From an uncultured Clostridia bacterium (GTDB lineage: Bacteria > Bacillota > Clostridia > Christensenellales > UBA1242), in NCBI GenBank assembly GCA_930990975.1, contig CAKNRR010000003.1:77037-141036 (forward strand): a DNA stretch of 64,000 nt. Direction: 5' to 3'. The position numbers and the translations under genes were made by a program. Positions 1,791 to 26,670 of this stretch are shown here, in pieces; positions within the stretch are counted from its first letter, which is position 1, and every line of letters begins with the position of its first letter. The notes under the pieces were generated by a model. It was given only the letters and a program-made list of their open reading frames with translations. It did no database searches and was not told the origin of the DNA.

Positions 1791-3629
1791 ATGAATAATC
1801 GTATTAGAGAAAAGCTAAAACTTTTGACCACTGAACCTGGCGTTTATATAATGAGAGATAAAGACGGCAATGTTATTTATGTCGGCAAAGCTAAAAATCT
1901 AAAAAACAGAGTAAGTCAATATTTTAGAAATTCTCCAAAGCCAGCAAAAGTTCAAGCAATGGTGGATAATGTTGATATATTTGATTATTTTATCACAATG
2001 AGCGAAATGGATGCTCTTGCACTTGAAAGCAACCTTATCAAAAAATATCAGCCTTTTTATAACATTTTATTGAAAGATGGAAAACAATTTCCATATATCA
2101 AAATTGACATGAAGGAGCCCTTCCCTAAACTTGAAATCGTGAGAAAAGTCAAAAAAGATGGAGCAAAGTATTTTGGACCATATTTTGCCGGCATAGATGT
2201 TCGAGAAATCGTAAAGACAATCAATTCTGCTTTTAAAATCCGAACATGCAATCTAAAAATCACAGAAAAATCAAGGGCAAAAAGAGAATGTTTGAACTAC
2301 TCTTTAGGATTATGTTCTGCCCCATGCACAAAAAGGATAAATGCCAATGAATATAAAAAAGAAATTGACAAAGTTATAAACTTTTTGAATGGAAATGATG
2401 ATGAAATTGAAAAAATTTTAACTGAAAAAATGAATTTAGCCGCTCAAAATGAAAATTTTGAAAATGCAATACTTATGCGTGATCGTCTTAAAATGGTTTC
2501 AAAGCTTAAACAACGCGTTGTTGCCAATCTGCCAAAAGATGTCAGCAAAGATGTTTTCGCTTATTACACTGACGGGCTGAGTGGCGTCATCACAAACATG
2601 GTCATTCGTGGAGGCAAAATTCTGGGGATTATTTCATATCCTTGTCTTGATGCAGAGCTTGAAGAAGGACAAACTCTTTTCAACTTTATTGTACAATATT
2701 ATCAAAATCTTTTGGTGCCTAATGAAATCATTTTGTCGCATGATATTGAAGATAAAGAACTTTTGTATGAATTTTTTAATAAAAAAGTCAATATTATCAC
2801 TAACCCACATGGTATAAACAAAAATCTTTTAAATATGGCACTTGAGAATGCCAAAGAATATCTCAATAAATATATTGAAAAAGAAAAGCTTAAGTACAAC
2901 AACACCTTGGGCGCCGTCAATAGCTTAAAAGAAAAACTTGGATTGAGAGAATTGCCTTTGCGTATGGAATGCTATGACATTTCAAACATCAGTGGAACAA
3001 ACAAAGTTTGTTCGATGGTTGTATTTAAAAATGGAGAAGCAAGCAAGAAGGACTATCGTAAATTTAAAATCAAAACAGTCAAAGGCTCAAATGATTTTGC
3101 TTCACTTGCAGAAGCTTTGACGCGAAGATTGAAAAGATTGGTTGAGCAAAATGGAGAAAGCTTTAAAGAAAAGCCTAACCTCATCATTATTGATGGTGGC
3201 AAAGGGCAAATCTCGTCTTCTTATGATATTTTGAAAAGTTTTGGACTTGAAGACAAAATTGATATGATTGGTCTAGCCAAAAAACAAGAGGAAGTCTTCT
3301 TCCCAAATCGTTCGCTCCCTACCCTTCTAAAACCTGGCAGTGCCGAGCTTAAGCTTATTCAAAGAATAAGGGATGAAGCTCATAGATTTGCTATAACTTA
3401 CCACAGAAATTTGAGAACAAAAAAGCAAACTGAATCTATTTTAACTCAAATCCCTGGCGTTGGTCCTAAAAAGAGGGATGCTCTATTGAAAGCATTTGGC
3501 ACAAGCGAAGAGGTTGCAAAGGCTGACATAGACTTACTACAGACAGTCCCTGAAATATCTCCTACCCTAGCATCTGCCATATATAACTTTTTTAAAGCTC
3601 ATCCAATAGATTACTCGCCAGAAGAATAA
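1791..3629 (+). CDS. uvrC: UvrABC system protein C (excinuclease subunit)
   Basis: GIY-YIG N-terminus (TEPGVYIMRDKDGNVIYVGKAKNLKNRVSQYF), UVR motif, MECYDISNISGTNKV, C-terminal HhH (IPGVGPKKRDALLKAFG). Confidence 0.98.
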   Translation: MNNRIREKLKLLTTEPGVYIMRDKDGNVIYVGKAKNLKNRVSQYFRNSPKPAKVQAMVDNVDIFDYFITMSEMDALALESNLIKKYQPFYNILLKDGKQFPYIKIDMKEPFPKLEIVRKVKKDGAKYFGPYFAGIDVREIVKTINSAFKIRTCNLKITEKSRAKRECLNYSLGLCSAPCTKRINANEYKKEIDKVINFLNGNDDEIEKILTEKMNLAAQNENFENAILMRDRLKMVSKLKQRVVANLPKDVSKDVFAYYTDGLSGVITNMVIRGGKILGIISYPCLDAELEEGQTLFNFIVQYYQNLLVPNEIILSHDIEDKELLYEFFNKKVNIITNPHGINKNLLNMALENAKEYLNKYIEKEKLKYNNTLGAVNSLKEKLGLRELPLRMECYDISNISGTNKVCSMVVFKNGEASKKDYRKFKIKTVKGSNDFASLAEALTRRLKRLVEQNGESFKEKPNLIIIDGGKGQISSSYDILKSFGLEDKIDMIGLAKKQEEVFFPNRSLPTLLKPGSAELKLIQRIRDEAHRFAITYHRNLRTKKQTESILTQIPGVGPKKRDALLKAFGTSEEVAKADIDLLQTVPEISPTLASAIYNFFKAHPIDYSPEE

Positions 3630-3794
3630 TTTTGTAAATTTGAGCAAAAATTTAAGTTTTTTAAGCTATTTATACGATTTTTTTATTAAAAAAACAGAAT
3701 TTTTACTTAAAAAAATAACTTTTAAAAGTTTTTTATTCAATTACAACAAGTGAATTTTATACCTCATTACCTTTTATTAATTCATCCATTTTGC

Positions 3795-3830
3795 AAAACT
3801 CTAGTTCACACAATAGGCTAGAGTTTTATT
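3795..3830 (+). terminator. Rho-independent terminator
   Basis: AAAACTCTAG ... CTAGAGTTTT stem followed by ATT. Confidence 0.6.
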
Positions 3831-3940
3831 AATGCAAGTGAGATTGTGTGATTTTTTAACAAAAAAATCTTTATAAGAATTTTTTTAATTTATTTGTAAA
3901 TAATTTTTATTGCTGTTATACTTGGATTTAGGAGGTTATT

Positions 3941-5062
3941 ATGAGAAAAATAACAATGGTACAATATGGTTGTGGAAAGATGAGCAAGTACACAATGCGT
4001 TACGCCCTTGAAAAAGGTGTTAAAATTGTCGGAGCATTTGATATTGATGAAAGCAAGATTGGCTTAGATATTTCAAGCATTATCGGTTGCGACGAAAAAT
4101 TGAATGTAAAAATTCAAGATGCAAAAGAGTTTGAAGACTTTTTAAAAACACATGATGTGGATGTCGCTATCATCACTACAACAAGCATTTTTGCAGAAAA
4201 CTACCCTATTTATGAAATATGTGCAAGAAATGGCGTTAATGCCATATCAACTTGCGAAGAGGCTTTCTACGCACAAAACTCAAGTCCAAAACTTGCAAAA
4301 AAGCTTGATAAAATTGCAAAAGAAAATGGATGCACTATTTGCGGAAGCGGATACCAAGATGTTTTCTGGGGAAATCTTATAAGTGTTATTGGAGGCGCAA
4401 CTCATAAAATTGTAAAAATCAAGGGAAAATCAAGCTATAATGTAGAAGATTACGGTATTTCTCTTGCTAAAGTTCATGGTGCAGGACTTACAAAAGAACA
4501 ATTTGAAAAGGGAATCATTGAACCTGAAAAAATGTCTGAAGAAGAGCTTAAAAAACTCATTAATTCTGGCAAATTTGCCCCTAGTTTTATGTGGAATGTA
4601 AATGGATGGCTTTGCTCTAAACTGGGCTTACACATCACAAAACAAACTCAAAATTCGGTTCCTCAAATTGCAGAAGAAGAAATCCACAGCACTACTTTAA
4701 ACATGACAATTCCAAAAGGATATTGCACAGGTTTAAGTGCTGTTGTTACAACTGAAACAAAAGAAGGAACAACAATTGTCAGTGAATGTATTGGAAAAGT
4801 TTATGGACCAAACGATTTTGATTGCAACGACTGGACTATTGAAGGCGAGCCTAGCACTAGAGTGGTCATTGAAAGACCTTCAACTGCAGAGCTTACTTGC
4901 GCATCAGTCATAAACAGAATAGTAGAAGTTCTTTGTGCAGAGCCTGGATATACAACAACTGACCAAATGCCAGAAAACATTTACAAAGCACACAATTTGG
5001 ACAAATATATCGAAATTGTCGACTGCCCTGATTGTGATGGCGAATGTCATTGTCACGATTAA
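3941..5062 (+). CDS. NAD(P)-binding amino-acid dehydrogenase, dihydrodipicolinate reductase-like / 2,4-diaminopentanoate dehydrogenase-like
   Basis: MVQYGCGKMSKYTMRYALEKGVKIVGAFDID Rossmann start; DapB-like architecture; Cys/His-rich C-terminus CPDCDGECHCHD. Confidence 0.7.
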   Translation: MRKITMVQYGCGKMSKYTMRYALEKGVKIVGAFDIDESKIGLDISSIIGCDEKLNVKIQDAKEFEDFLKTHDVDVAIITTTSIFAENYPIYEICARNGVNAISTCEEAFYAQNSSPKLAKKLDKIAKENGCTICGSGYQDVFWGNLISVIGGATHKIVKIKGKSSYNVEDYGISLAKVHGAGLTKEQFEKGIIEPEKMSEEELKKLINSGKFAPSFMWNVNGWLCSKLGLHITKQTQNSVPQIAEEEIHSTTLNMTIPKGYCTGLSAVVTTETKEGTTIVSECIGKVYGPNDFDCNDWTIEGEPSTRVVIERPSTAELTCASVINRIVEVLCAEPGYTTTDQMPENIYKAHNLDKYIEIVDCPDCDGECHCHD

Positions 5063-22008: not shown

Positions 22009-22045
22009 AAAAAATTTCATAATATTAAAAAATCTAGGCTTTTTT

Positions 22046-22222
22046 GGGGTGCACCCAAAAAGTTGGACAAAATTAAATTAAATAAATTGATTTTGAGTTC
22101 GGTATTTTACCGGACTCATTTTTAATCTTAAATTTATTCTCTCGTTATTGTAATATATATATATTCTTTCAATTTGTCAATGAAAGTGTTAACACTTTCA
22201 AATTTTTCTCCATAAATTATTC
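22046..22222 (-). mobile_element. IS3/IS150-type insertion sequence remnant (transposase C-terminus plus terminal repeat)
   Basis: End sequence TGCACCCAAAAAGTTGGACA; minus-strand reading IIYGEKFESVNTFIDKLKEYIY(frameshift)YYNNERINLRLKMSPVKYRTQNQFI* is typical of IS3-family OrfB C-termini. Confidence 0.85.
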
Positions 22223-22438
22223 TAACAATTTTTTTAATGTATCATATTTAGCCAATGGTTCTCCACCGGTAAAAATGAGCAATCTAGGTTTTGCGACTTC
22301 TAAAACATTTTTTATAAAAAGGTCTGCATCTATCGTACTTGCATCTCTAAAATCTGCTTGACTACAAAACGAGCATTTTAAATTGCAACATCTTGTAAGT
22401 TGAACTTTAACCCAATCTAATTTTTCTATTTTTTCCAT
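22217..22438 (-). pseudogene. Radical SAM protein, 3'-truncated
   Basis: VQLTRCCNLKCSFCSQ (CxxxCxxC) and LLIFTGGEPLAKYDTLKK; only 73 aa, ends at the IS remnant. Confidence 0.8.
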
Positions 22439-22447
22439 GATTCTCTC

Positions 22448-22861
22448 TTATTTTATCTTTTTTATTGTTTTTTCAAGAGCATTTTTTGCATCGTTATGTT
22501 TTAACATTTTTAATGCGTAATCTACTTCAACCCATTTTCCATCAATAAAACCTTCATTTTTATTGTAAGTAATTTCTCTTTCATCATTAATTATGAAAGC
22601 AAAAACCTTTATGACTTTAACTGCATTTTCTCCACTAAAATAGAATTTGTATTCATCTACTTGACCAATAGATTCTTGTGCGTTAACTTTAACATTGCTT
22701 TCTTCATACAATTCTCTAATAGCTGCATCAAGTTCTGTCTCATTAGACTCTACATGCCCCTTAGGGAATACCCATTCTCCTTCACTATTTAACAACAATA
22801 CCTTTAATTTTTTTTCTTTTTTTGTAATTACAATTGCCATACTTGAAATTTTTTCTATCAT
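22448..22861 (-). CDS. NUDIX hydrolase
   Basis: Nudix box GHVESNETELDAAIRELYEESNV. Confidence 0.9.
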   Translation of the reverse strand: MIEKISSMAIVITKKEKKLKVLLLNSEGEWVFPKGHVESNETELDAAIRELYEESNVKVNAQESIGQVDEYKFYFSGENAVKVIKVFAFIINDEREITYNKNEGFIDGKWVEVDYALKMLKHNDAKNALEKTIKKIK

Positions 22862-23094
22862 TTTTTATTCTCCTTTATAAAATTATATATTTTTCTAATT
22901 GAAGTAAGTTCAGGAATTATATCCTCATTAAACTTCAATGAAAAAGCATCGCAAATATTAATTACTATTAAAACATGTGCCAATGAATCCCAATTATCTG
23001 TATTTTTAATATCTGAATCTAGATTTAAAGTGTTTTTGTTTACTTTTAGACATTTTGAAACAACATCTATTATCTTAATTAATATATCATCCAT
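22858..23094 (-). CDS. Acyl/peptidyl carrier protein-like
   Basis: 78 aa, ACP-like helix pattern with NTDNWDSLAHVLIVINI (phosphopantetheine-Ser DSL). Confidence 0.75.
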   Translation of the reverse strand: MDDILIKIIDVVSKCLKVNKNTLNLDSDIKNTDNWDSLAHVLIVINICDAFSLKFNEDIIPELTSIRKIYNFIKENKK

Positions 23095-23335
23095 AATTTT
23101 CCTCTATCAATTTTTTTATTTCTGTGGGAAATTTGTCTTTATCATATCCAAACTGACACAATATAGAATAACACCATCTTTCAATTCCAAAGCCCAGACA
23201 CAACGACTCGTAATATTTTTCGCCATTTTTAATGCCCCATTGTTTAGTAAAAAAATCATTATGCATATTTATAGAGCAACCTGCAATTGTTTCTTCTTGA
23301 TTTAACCTTAATCTGGGGTGCAGATCATTTGGGCT
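23087..23335 (-). pseudogene. Fragment of class-II aminoacyl-tRNA-synthetase-like enzyme (candidate amino acid:[carrier protein] ligase)
   Basis: Minus-strand reading SPNDLHPRLRLNQEETIAGCSINMHNDFFTKQWGIKNGEKYYESLCLGFGIERWCYSILCQFGYDKDKFPTEIKKLIEENYG*; GFGIERW resembles class-II motif 3; stop overlaps the carrier-protein start (ATGGATGA). Confidence 0.5.
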
Positions 23336-23432
23336 TAGATTTTTCTTTTTTATTATATTTTTTATATTTTATTACATTAATTTCACTTAATTTTATTTAG
23401 TTTTGTTTTTATTTTTTTTATTTTGTATAACT

Positions 23433-24140
23433 TTAAACATTTCTCTCTTCATTAGTTTCTACTTGTTTTTCTCTTTCTATTGGCCAAATATCATATACAA
23501 AATTACTATATTTTTCATTTATCTCGCTTGCAGGTAAATTAATCAACAAATAATATGCGTCCAAGTTTTCTTTTCCAAGCAGTTTTAAGGTTGCTAAATA
23601 GTGGTCATATTCACCTTTCTCGTCTTTATTAAAAGATATAAGTTCAACACCTTCTTTCTTTAAATTTCCAATGTATTCTTCTAACTTTACATTATAAAAA
23701 TTTTGTGGTGAAGATTTATAATCTTTTTCTTTGCAATGTATAAGCGAACTTAAATCAACAACAAAAGCATTACCATCCATTATCACAACATTTAAAGCAT
23801 GTCCAATCTTTTTCCCCTCTTTATTAAGATTGCAAGCACTATAAAAAATATTCATATCGCCATCAATGACACCAATAAGAGAAAGTGCTTGAGCAAATTG
23901 TTGACAAACTCCATCCCCTGTTTGCAAAAACTCGCGAAGCTCTTTTTCGCTTAAATCCAATGATTCTTCAACCGAGCCTCCAACTATAGCATCTCGTCTT
24001 TGCTTGTCATATCTTCCAATATCAACAAAATGTTTAATATAGTTTTCTAATCTTTGTTTTGGTGGCAATGTCTTATTTTTATCAACTAAGTCTGACAAAT
24101 AATTTAAAACATATTCCTCGTTTGTATTTTCTTTTGCCAT
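23433..24140 (-). CDS. Transglutaminase-like cysteine-protease-fold protein
   Basis: GDGVCQQFAQALSLIG ... IGHALNVVIMDGNAFVVDLSS: Cys/His/Asp triad spacing. Confidence 0.65.
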   Translation of the reverse strand: MAKENTNEEYVLNYLSDLVDKNKTLPPKQRLENYIKHFVDIGRYDKQRRDAIVGGSVEESLDLSEKELREFLQTGDGVCQQFAQALSLIGVIDGDMNIFYSACNLNKEGKKIGHALNVVIMDGNAFVVDLSSLIHCKEKDYKSSPQNFYNVKLEEYIGNLKKEGVELISFNKDEKGEYDHYLATLKLLGKENLDAYYLLINLPASEINEKYSNFVYDIWPIEREKQVETNEERNV

Positions 24141-24192
24141 TGCTATTCTCCATTGCTTGATAATTATTTTAATTTGTATTTTTTTTATTTTC

Positions 24193-24636
24193 TTATAATG
24201 TTCTGTCTTCCTCTTGTTCTTCTTTCAAATAGTGAAGTTGATTTCCTATTCCACCAACATCTTCTAATGGCACTGAAATTTTTGTATCGTATTTTGTTTT
24301 TATCATCGGAATCAAAAATTTTCTATAATTTTGACCGGCAAGAAAAATAAGTTCTGCATCATTCAAATCAATTTTTTCTTCCATTTGTTTAAATACTTTC
24401 TCTGCCCAACTTTTCTTTACAGTATTTTTTGCACCATTTAATGTTTGATTATATGGCTCCAGCACTTCATTCTCGTCTACAAGTCCATGTTTTGCTGAAA
24501 GAATAAAAACTTTATCAGCATGTTTTTTAGCATAATTGTAAGCATAGCTAAACAATACACTCTCACTATACAATTCCTTTGCTTGGCATTTATAATTCTT
24601 CTTTTTCTTAGTGCAAGCTATCAATGCTACTTTCAT
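24193..24636 (-). CDS. DUF6884-like protein
   Basis: MKVALIACTKKKKNYKCQAKELYSESVLFSYAYNYAKKHADKVFILSAKHGLVDENEVLEPYNQTL; start placed at internal Met. Confidence 0.7.
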   Translation of the reverse strand: MKVALIACTKKKKNYKCQAKELYSESVLFSYAYNYAKKHADKVFILSAKHGLVDENEVLEPYNQTLNGAKNTVKKSWAEKVFKQMEEKIDLNDAELIFLAGQNYRKFLIPMIKTKYDTKISVPLEDVGGIGNQLHYLKEEQEEDRTL

Positions 24637-25282
24637 CTTCAACCCCACAAATCTTATATAATTTATCCATTTCTTCATCTGTCAATGCTTTTGCTTTAAT
24701 TCCCTGCGATAGCCACATACGAGCATCTTTTACATGGTTTGCTTTTGTTGGCAAAACATAATTTCCAAGCCAATCTTTTGAAGCTTGAAAGTCTTCGCTT
24801 TGATATAAGGTTGAAATTATAGCTTCTTCCAATCTTAATCTTTCTTCTTTCGTATTTACAGGAAACACAACAAACGACATGTTGTCATGAAGATAATTTG
24901 TTATCCATGATTCAAGTTGTTGTCTTTCTTTTTCTAAATCAGCATCAAAATATTTATCTTTGTTTGCTCTGTTTGTCAAATCCAAGTTCCAATATTTTAA
25001 CAAAGGATTGTTATCTTTATTCAAAACTGCTCTGCCTATATTTTTCCTAAATATTGACCTATCTTTATTTGGATTTTCAAAATGTTGTTTCATTCTGCTC
25101 TTTAAATTGTTTTCGCCAGTATCCGTTCCTACGCGAACTATTCTATCATAATCGTTGTAGGTTTCTCCCTTTTCGAAAAATATGTAAATACCATTATTAA
25201 ATGGTATTTGGTCTATTGTATCAAAAGTATACCTTTTCATTGAATTAAAAAGTTTATGTAATTCTAAACATCTATTATTCAT
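24608..25282 (-). CDS. GIY-YIG-like nuclease domain protein
   Basis: NNGIYIFFEKGETYNDYDRIVRVGTDTGENNLKSRMKQHF resembles GIY-YIG core; overlaps the DUF6884-like gene by about 29 nt. Confidence 0.65.
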   Translation of the reverse strand: MNNRCLELHKLFNSMKRYTFDTIDQIPFNNGIYIFFEKGETYNDYDRIVRVGTDTGENNLKSRMKQHFENPNKDRSIFRKNIGRAVLNKDNNPLLKYWNLDLTNRANKDKYFDADLEKERQQLESWITNYLHDNMSFVVFPVNTKEERLRLEEAIISTLYQSEDFQASKDWLGNYVLPTKANHVKDARMWLSQGIKAKALTDEEMDKLYKICGVEDESSIDSLH

Positions 25283-25642
25283 TTTCCCCTCCCCAAAAGA
25301 CTATAATCTTTAAAGTATTTTATCACTATAAAAGCCCTTTTGTCAAGGTTGATTGAATTATTGATTAAATAATTCAACCTTTATTTGATTGGAAGATGAT
25401 TAGCCTTTGAGTATGCTATTTTTTTGCATTGGTTTGATTTAAAATTATTTTTAATTTATATATAAAACGCTACTAAACAAAGAATTTAACTTGTACAAAA
25501 CGAGATTAAAAGTCAAAAAGATAAAATAAAAAAGCAAGAATATAAGCTATAATCGCAAAAAACTTGTGTTTTATGCTATTAAAATAAAATTTTGTTGGAA
25601 AAAACAAAATAAATTTGCTATCCTTAATTTAAGGAGAAAATT

Positions 25643-26199
25643 ATGAACTACGAAATCAAACATACAGGAACGGTTGAGATTGAAACGGATAGATTACAAC
25701 TTAGGCCTATCTTGCTTACTGACGCACAGAGCCTTTATGAACTTGTTACAGACAAAAAAGTTTTGAAATGTCTTGCAGGGATACCAAAATATACAGGTGT
25801 TGAAATGGCGGTGGATTATATTTCTGGTAAACTTGAAAAGAAATATCGTAGCAAAGATTTTTATGATTGGGCTGTTGTTTTAAAAAGCGAAAACAAGATG
25901 ATTGGCAGAATCAGTGTATATAAACAATTTGACGATCGCCGTATGGCTGCCTTGTGTGGTATTTGAACGCAGACTATCGCAACAAAGGATATATAACCGA
26001 AGCAGTGAAAGCAGTCATCAATCACCTCTTCGCAATCGGTTTTGAAAGAATTGAAGCTTTTGCAGATGTAGAAAACAAAGCAAGCACCAAAGTTATGGAA
26101 AAAGTTGGAATGCAATATGAAGGCACATTGCGAAAATATGATGTCCGCCGAGATGATAGCCTGTATGACGCAGAAATGTGGTCAATTATAAAGGTATAA
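25643..26199 (+). pseudogene. RimJ/RimL-type GNAT acetyltransferase, frameshifted
   Basis: ORF 25643-25966 (ETDRLQLRPILLTDAQSLYELV) and ORF 25954-26199 (YLNADYRNKGYITEAVKAVINHLF...NKASTKVMEKVGMQYEG) together make one GNAT in two frames. Confidence 0.85.
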
Positions 26200-26292
26200 G
26201 ATTACACATTAGTTCTTTCATATAAATAAGGTTAAATATAACCCTGTTTTATTTTTATATAACAAAAAAACTGTGAAATTATCACAGCCATT

Positions 26293-26369
26293 TGGTGCGC
26301 CGCAAGGGATTCGAACCCCTGACCTTTCGTTCCGTAGACGAACGCTCTATCCAGCTGAGCTAGCGGCGC
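26293..26369 (-). tRNA. tRNA-Arg (anticodon ACG), CCA encoded
   Basis: Minus strand GCGCCGCTAGCTCAGCTGGATAGAGCGTTCGTCTACGGAACGAAAGGTCAGGGGTTCGAATCCCTTGCGGCGCACCA folds as cloverleaf; loop CTACGGA. Confidence 0.95.
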
Positions 26370-26670
26370 ATAAATTATTGAACGGCTTAATTATATCATA
26401 TACAATCATTTTTTGCAATAAATTTCATGAAATTGTTTACTTTTATTTGTTATAAAATAAAAAACAGCAAAGAACCCTTAAACAAATCTTTAAGTAAAAA
26501 AGCAAATAAAAACATTCAAAAATAAAAAATCTACGCTTATAAAAAATTTGTGCTTCTTGGGTTTGTTTTAATATAGGTTTAACCAGTTTTTTTAAAAAAA
26601 ATTGACAAACAGGATATTGTAAAGAATTTCAAATTTTACTCTCGGAAAATTTTATGATTTAAAAATTAAA

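Follow-up and report, generated by a model that had tools for sequence, protein, structure and literature searches.

Remains of a probable carrier-protein operon with an aminoacyl-tRNA-synthetase-like ligase and a radical SAM gene in uncultured Clostridia

Results

Four closely packed genes with damaged ends

The window, by which we mean the whole 64,000-nucleotide stretch of DNA from an uncultured Clostridia bacterium that was analysed, carries on its minus strand at 22218–23314 a ligase 3′ fragment, a carrier protein gene, a NUDIX gene, and a radical SAM 5′ fragment, in that order. The features of this region are as follows.

22045–22216, minus strand: 3′ relic of an IS3/IS150-type transposase (orfB C-terminus), ending at a TGCACCC... 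terminus and abutting the truncated radical SAM gene
22217–22438, minus strand: 5′ part of a radical SAM gene, 73 aa, with CxxxCxxC and the 3′ part gone (PF04055, 1.3e-8)
22448–22861, minus strand: complete NUDIX hydrolase, 137 aa (PF00293, 1.4e-15)
22858–23094, minus strand: complete free-standing carrier protein, 78 aa, NWDSL with Ser37 (NCBIfam ACP, 4e-7)
23087–23314, minus strand: 3′ fragment of an amino acid:[carrier protein] ligase, ~75 aa (PRK07080, 1e-10; motif 3 GFGIERW)
22014–26292, no strand assigned: accessory insertion containing the island, between a dGTPase gene and a tRNA gene (from comparison with genome G018)

The ligase and carrier protein genes overlap by 8 nt (ATGGATGA, 23094–23087), with the ligase TGA at 23087–23089 inside the start region of the carrier protein; the carrier protein and NUDIX genes overlap by 4 nt (ATGA, 22858–22861), and 9 nt separate the NUDIX stop from the radical SAM start. 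The initial annotation had described four packed, overlapping minus-strand pieces with damage at both ends, and this description holds: the overlaps are as given there, the ligase lacks its N-terminal part, and the radical SAM protein lacks its C-terminal two thirds. The block that it delimited, 22046–23420, is real, but this span also takes in the insertion-sequence relic and ~110 nt upstream of the ligase.

Identity of the encoded proteins

The ligase fragment of the window matched the amino acid--[acyl-carrier-protein] ligase model PRK07080 and, being a short piece, matched the SerRS model PRK00960 equally well (9e-11). It is 94–96% identical to a longer ligase in G022, a MAG of the same genus, which matched PRK07080 at 4.3e-30 compared to 9e-19 and 4.5e-17 for SerRS models when its two frames were read through for the search; the PRK07080 score of 105 bits lies below the curated cut-off of 357 bits. 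In comparisons with PDB, the G022 ligase matched 3mey (Bll0957) at 5.6e-19 and SerRS 3w3s at 5.7e-9. The fragment had been annotated as class-II-aaRS-like, and these results bear this out and narrow it: judged by sequence, it is firmly placed among the amino acid:[carrier protein] ligases, with amino acid loading expected from its family. Its open frame extends to ~23370 and homology to G022 stops near 23309–23314, so that ~72–75 aa are genuine ligase. Only motif 3 and one presumed zinc Cys are left in the window, with motifs 1 and 2 gone; the G022 copy retains NPAAC, FRFEG, and SLCMGFG, spread over both sides of a frameshift. The N-terminus, which bears on the lack of a tRNA-binding domain that marks this family, is missing from both copies. 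We take Cys/Glu/Cys in the G022 ligase to be the zinc ligands, an assignment made from known structures. Compared to amino acid:[carrier protein] ligases of the Bll0957 type (PRK07080, 3mey), the ligase is alike in its class II SerRS-like core, motif 3, adjacent carrier protein gene, and, in the G022 copy, presumed zinc ligands, but differs in having only ~30% identity, in the NUDIX and radical SAM genes downstream of the carrier protein, and in its truncation in the window.

The carrier protein scored only 0.014 against Pfam PP-binding, and NCBIfam ACP models matched it as listed above. AlphaFold modelled it as a four-helix bundle (pLDDT 91), for which Foldseek ranked acyl carrier proteins highest (TM 0.87–0.90), in agreement with the earlier call of a carrier protein. 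Size, four-helix fold, and a conserved Ser in a DSL motif are shared with the free-standing carrier proteins of small NRPS-like pathways (AmcB, DltC, AsbD), and similarity to carrier proteins beside other ligases is weak (12–24%). The window genome encodes an AcpS-type PPTase.

The NUDIX protein is 97% identical in G022 and 87% identical in G029, and its NUDIX box (GX5EX7REUXEEXGU) is present as GHVESNETELDAAIRELYEESNV, with N replacing the last G. In G027 (L164:1717–2802), a NUDIX of the same type and a class I SAM methyltransferase are fused into one protein.

The radical SAM protein has the CxxxCxxC core of PF04055 enzymes, present as CNLKCSFC, but its C-terminal part is lost and the core barrel is incomplete in the window. 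In G022, by comparison, the protein reads for 248 aa before a frame change and has a complete core (PF04055, 1.2e-21, positions 2–166). Its weak best matches are SPASM maturases, AhbD/NirJ, and cytosylglucuronate decarboxylase; because the C-terminal part is lost and all matches lie far below curated cut-offs, no subfamily is assignable. Relatives at 30–34% identity in G071 and G054 lie in clusters of multiple radical SAM genes, with no carrier protein, NUDIX, or ligase there.

Damage and insertion site

The window radical SAM gene was cut by an IS3-type element: its reading ends at 22217 and runs into relic DNA, which is 88.2% identical over 178 nt to the 3′ end of an rve/rve_2 transposase in G029 (L161:3749–3925). 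IS3-type relics lie at the radical SAM break in the window and adjoin the ligase break in G022. At the ligase end, the window sequence beyond the junction near 23310 is AT-rich. The orthologous dGTPase gene of G018 has the same tRNA (26293–26379 in the window) ~140 nt behind it; this empty site shows that the 4.3 kb including the island are an insertion in the window genome. The same insertion by the tRNA carries transglutaminase-like, DUF6884, and GIY-YIG-like genes (23433–25282), which are possibly a defence or mobile island, as well as a GNAT gene.

Related copies, horizontal transfer, and selection

Window positions 22218–23314 align by BLAST to positions 657–1753 of L004 (CALVNK010000062.1, uncultured Clostridia bacterium), the G022 locus, at 96.4% nucleotide identity, with the same gene order and the same overlaps. 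The G022 ligase amounts to ~233 aa split between two frames by a frameshift, and ~30 nt separate it from the beginning of an IS3-type relic; the contig is short and has 4.9x coverage, and the G022 frameshifts could be errors. A third copy, in G029 (L161), is equivalent to L004 826–1466 at 83% identity and comprises the carrier protein 3′ part, the NUDIX gene, and the first radical SAM codons; here the NUDIX frame is open, and the carrier protein and radical SAM genes are wrecked.

Whereas the island is 96.4% identical between the window genome and G022, their rsmH genes, which belong to the core, are only 67% identical, and this shows horizontal transfer of the island. The G022 and G029 flanks (NUDIX2, an OapA-like gene, and OLE RNA) are 95–98% identical, yet the two islands are 17% divergent and in opposite orientation; thus, these copies were not simply inherited together.

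Between the window and G022, dN/dS was 0.08 for the ligase (7 synonymous and 3 non-synonymous changes), 0.07 for the carrier protein (6 and 2), 0.18 for NUDIX (6 and 5), and 0.23 for radical SAM (4 and 4), and NUDIX values across comparisons including the G029 copy were 0.15–0.18; these estimates rest on small counts, with 4–7 synonymous changes per gene and only three copies in existence. A signature of selected proteins in all four genes suggests that most of the window–G022 divergence arose while the genes worked. Judged from these substitutions, all four genes were under purifying selection until recently. Because the four-piece block is conserved at this level in a MAG of the same genus and synonymous changes prevail per site in every gene, its arrangement is more than chance. 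The locus is real, was correctly read, and is decayed.

Distribution

The ligase was found in 2 of 151 relatives; of 396 genomes belonging to the order, the window genome alone had it, and 399 genomes of the phylum yielded 1 further true case. A match in G545 was false, being a PucR-type regulator by sequence. In a genome of the phylum, G570, a 496-aa ligase carries a C-terminal fused carrier-protein-like domain (L009:1144–2631). Among ~85,000 species genomes, a scan that detects only relatives sharing the two conserved patterns of the ligase returned G022's own contig and otherwise nothing above 37% identity. Intact relatives with the full system had been considered possible, and none emerged from this search: the only longer copy, in G022, is itself frameshifted and truncated.

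The four-gene set is confined to one genus, with all four genes in two members and remnants of three in another. The proposal that the four genes co-occur thus stands within the genus, fully in G022 and partly in G029, but did not extend beyond it in our sample: at 79 distant ligase loci, a carrier protein lies directly beside the ligase in most, no recognisable relative of the window NUDIX or radical SAM was present at any, and the same four genes were not found together. Gene order also varies, with the ligase before the carrier protein here and the carrier protein before the ligase in Paenibacillaceae.

A phage origin was considered and rejected, as viral contigs scanned with the ligase, NUDIX, and radical SAM sequences gave no match. 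The single GenBank 'Bacteriophage sp.' entry that does contain a ligase, MT835751.1 (L006), resembles a biosynthetic cluster from bacteria, with ABC transporter, NTP_transf_5, ligase, carrier protein, BtrH_N-like, and IS66-like genes, and is probably mislabelled.

Discussion

Enzymes of this ligase family make an aminoacyl adenylate and pass the amino acid to carrier protein phosphopantetheine (Mocibob et al. 2010, 2013, as reviewed in PMC9437257), and the biological role of amino acid:[carrier protein] ligases was described as unknown in that 2022 review (PMC9437257). We favour the reading that the island is a recently decayed, horizontally acquired operon that once loaded an amino acid onto the carrier protein for the radical SAM enzyme, with a probability of about 0.7. 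In such an operon, the ligase would use ATP to activate an amino acid and would attach it through a thioester bond to the carrier protein's phosphopantetheine arm. The radical SAM enzyme would take as its substrate either this charged amino acid or a product set free from it, and the NUDIX protein would either hydrolyse a by-product linked to a nucleotide or be present as a house-cleaning passenger. What the radical SAM and NUDIX proteins did, and in which order, is something that we infer. That an amino acid:[carrier protein] ligase and a radical SAM enzyme are neighbours here points to chemistry on an amino acid held by the carrier, although action of the radical SAM protein on the charged amino acid itself is somewhat less likely than not. 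Elsewhere, the ligase–carrier protein pair adjoins an acyl-CoA dehydrogenase (annotated in L008, judged from sequence in L022 and L058), a BtrH_N-like protein (L006, a weak match), or a DltB-type MBOAT protein (L013 and others). Such neighbouring enzymes could modify or hand on the tethered amino acid, and by analogy the radical SAM enzyme may act on the charged amino acid or on its product.

The ligase and carrier protein are of an already known kind; what is new is their radical SAM and NUDIX companions, which are lineage-restricted and whose function we infer, and a literature search for the ligase, radical SAM, and NUDIX together found nothing relevant. It is conceivable, though rather doubtful, that the set formed a previously unrecorded minimal pathway, in which a stand-alone carrier protein receives an amino acid from the aaRS-like ligase, the radical SAM enzyme alters this amino acid while it is tethered, and NUDIX cleans up, spread horizontally among uncultured Clostridia and repeatedly lost.

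The place of NUDIX in a common pathway is uncertain, as its family stands alone in other members of the genus, is joined to a methyltransferase in one, and is kept in G029 while the rest is lost. Conservation of the ligase/carrier protein and carrier protein/NUDIX overlaps and of the 9-nt NUDIX–radical SAM gap in two genomes, together with a carrier protein–NUDIX–radical SAM order still traceable in the 83%-identical third copy, argues against an arrangement of two unrelated modules, in which a decaying ligase–carrier protein pair and a useful NUDIX (with radical SAM) became chance neighbours in a mobile island and shared no pathway. This alternative would nonetheless account for the NUDIX homologues that occur without carrier protein, ligase, or radical SAM in the genus members G074, G056, G027, and G047, for the NUDIX gene that is intact in G029 (dN/dS 0.15–0.17) while its neighbours are wrecked, and for the lack of NUDIX and radical SAM at the distant ligase loci; we regard it as unlikely but as the most serious competitor.

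Under our preferred reading of a decayed operon, the pathway cannot run in the window genome, because the ligase is without motifs 1 and 2 and the radical SAM protein is without its C-terminal two thirds. Residual function, with carrier protein and NUDIX still working and only the ends lost, would fit their intact frames, the purifying selection between the window and G022, and the PPTase in the genome. However, no use is known for a carrier protein that lacks its loading enzyme or a partner, the window genome yielded no second ligase copy elsewhere, and the selection may be older than the damage, making this reading improbable. That the fragments are an assembly or binning artefact, representing foreign contamination, is very improbable: 96.4% identity to the MAG of another species and the 4.9x coverage of the G022 contig might raise this concern, but the window copy lies on a contig of 178 kb and is flanked by orthologues of G018 genes, the breakpoints of the two copies differ, and the G022 contig shares its flank with G029. 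As every copy found is damaged, the locus is a pointer to such a system rather than a working example.

A dlt-like operon in Paenibacillaceae and an RNA near the G022 island

Among the distant loci, L013:7358–11156 contains in one row a carrier protein, an aaRS-like amino acid:[carrier protein] ligase, a DltD-like protein, and a DltB-type MBOAT protein, and the same full dlt-like set is present in 63 of the 79 loci (L013–L090, mostly Paenibacillus). The MBOAT protein matched TIGR04091 at 6e-50 and PDB DltB at 1e-30; the DltD-like protein has conserved GNS and HDxxH motifs but scored only 0.019 against TIGR04092. From sequence similarity, the Paenibacillaceae operon thus appears to be dlt-like, with a class-II-aaRS-like ligase replacing DltA, and we found no paper on such an arrangement. 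The decayed island resembles the dlt operon (DltA-DltC-DltB-DltD) in its presumed logic, the charging of a small carrier protein with an amino acid, but differs in that DltB and DltD are absent from it and its loader is aaRS-like rather than ANL-type. If DltA has been replaced, amino acid:[carrier protein] ligases would have a role in cell-envelope aminoacylation, and the Paenibacillaceae operon is a clearer lead on the role of these ligases than the decayed island.

OLE RNA with an adjacent gene for an OapA-like membrane protein was observed in reduced Clostridia genomes (L004:4642–5219 and 3558–4337; G000:C12:26987–27570), and OLE RNA was present in 43 of 101 relatives.
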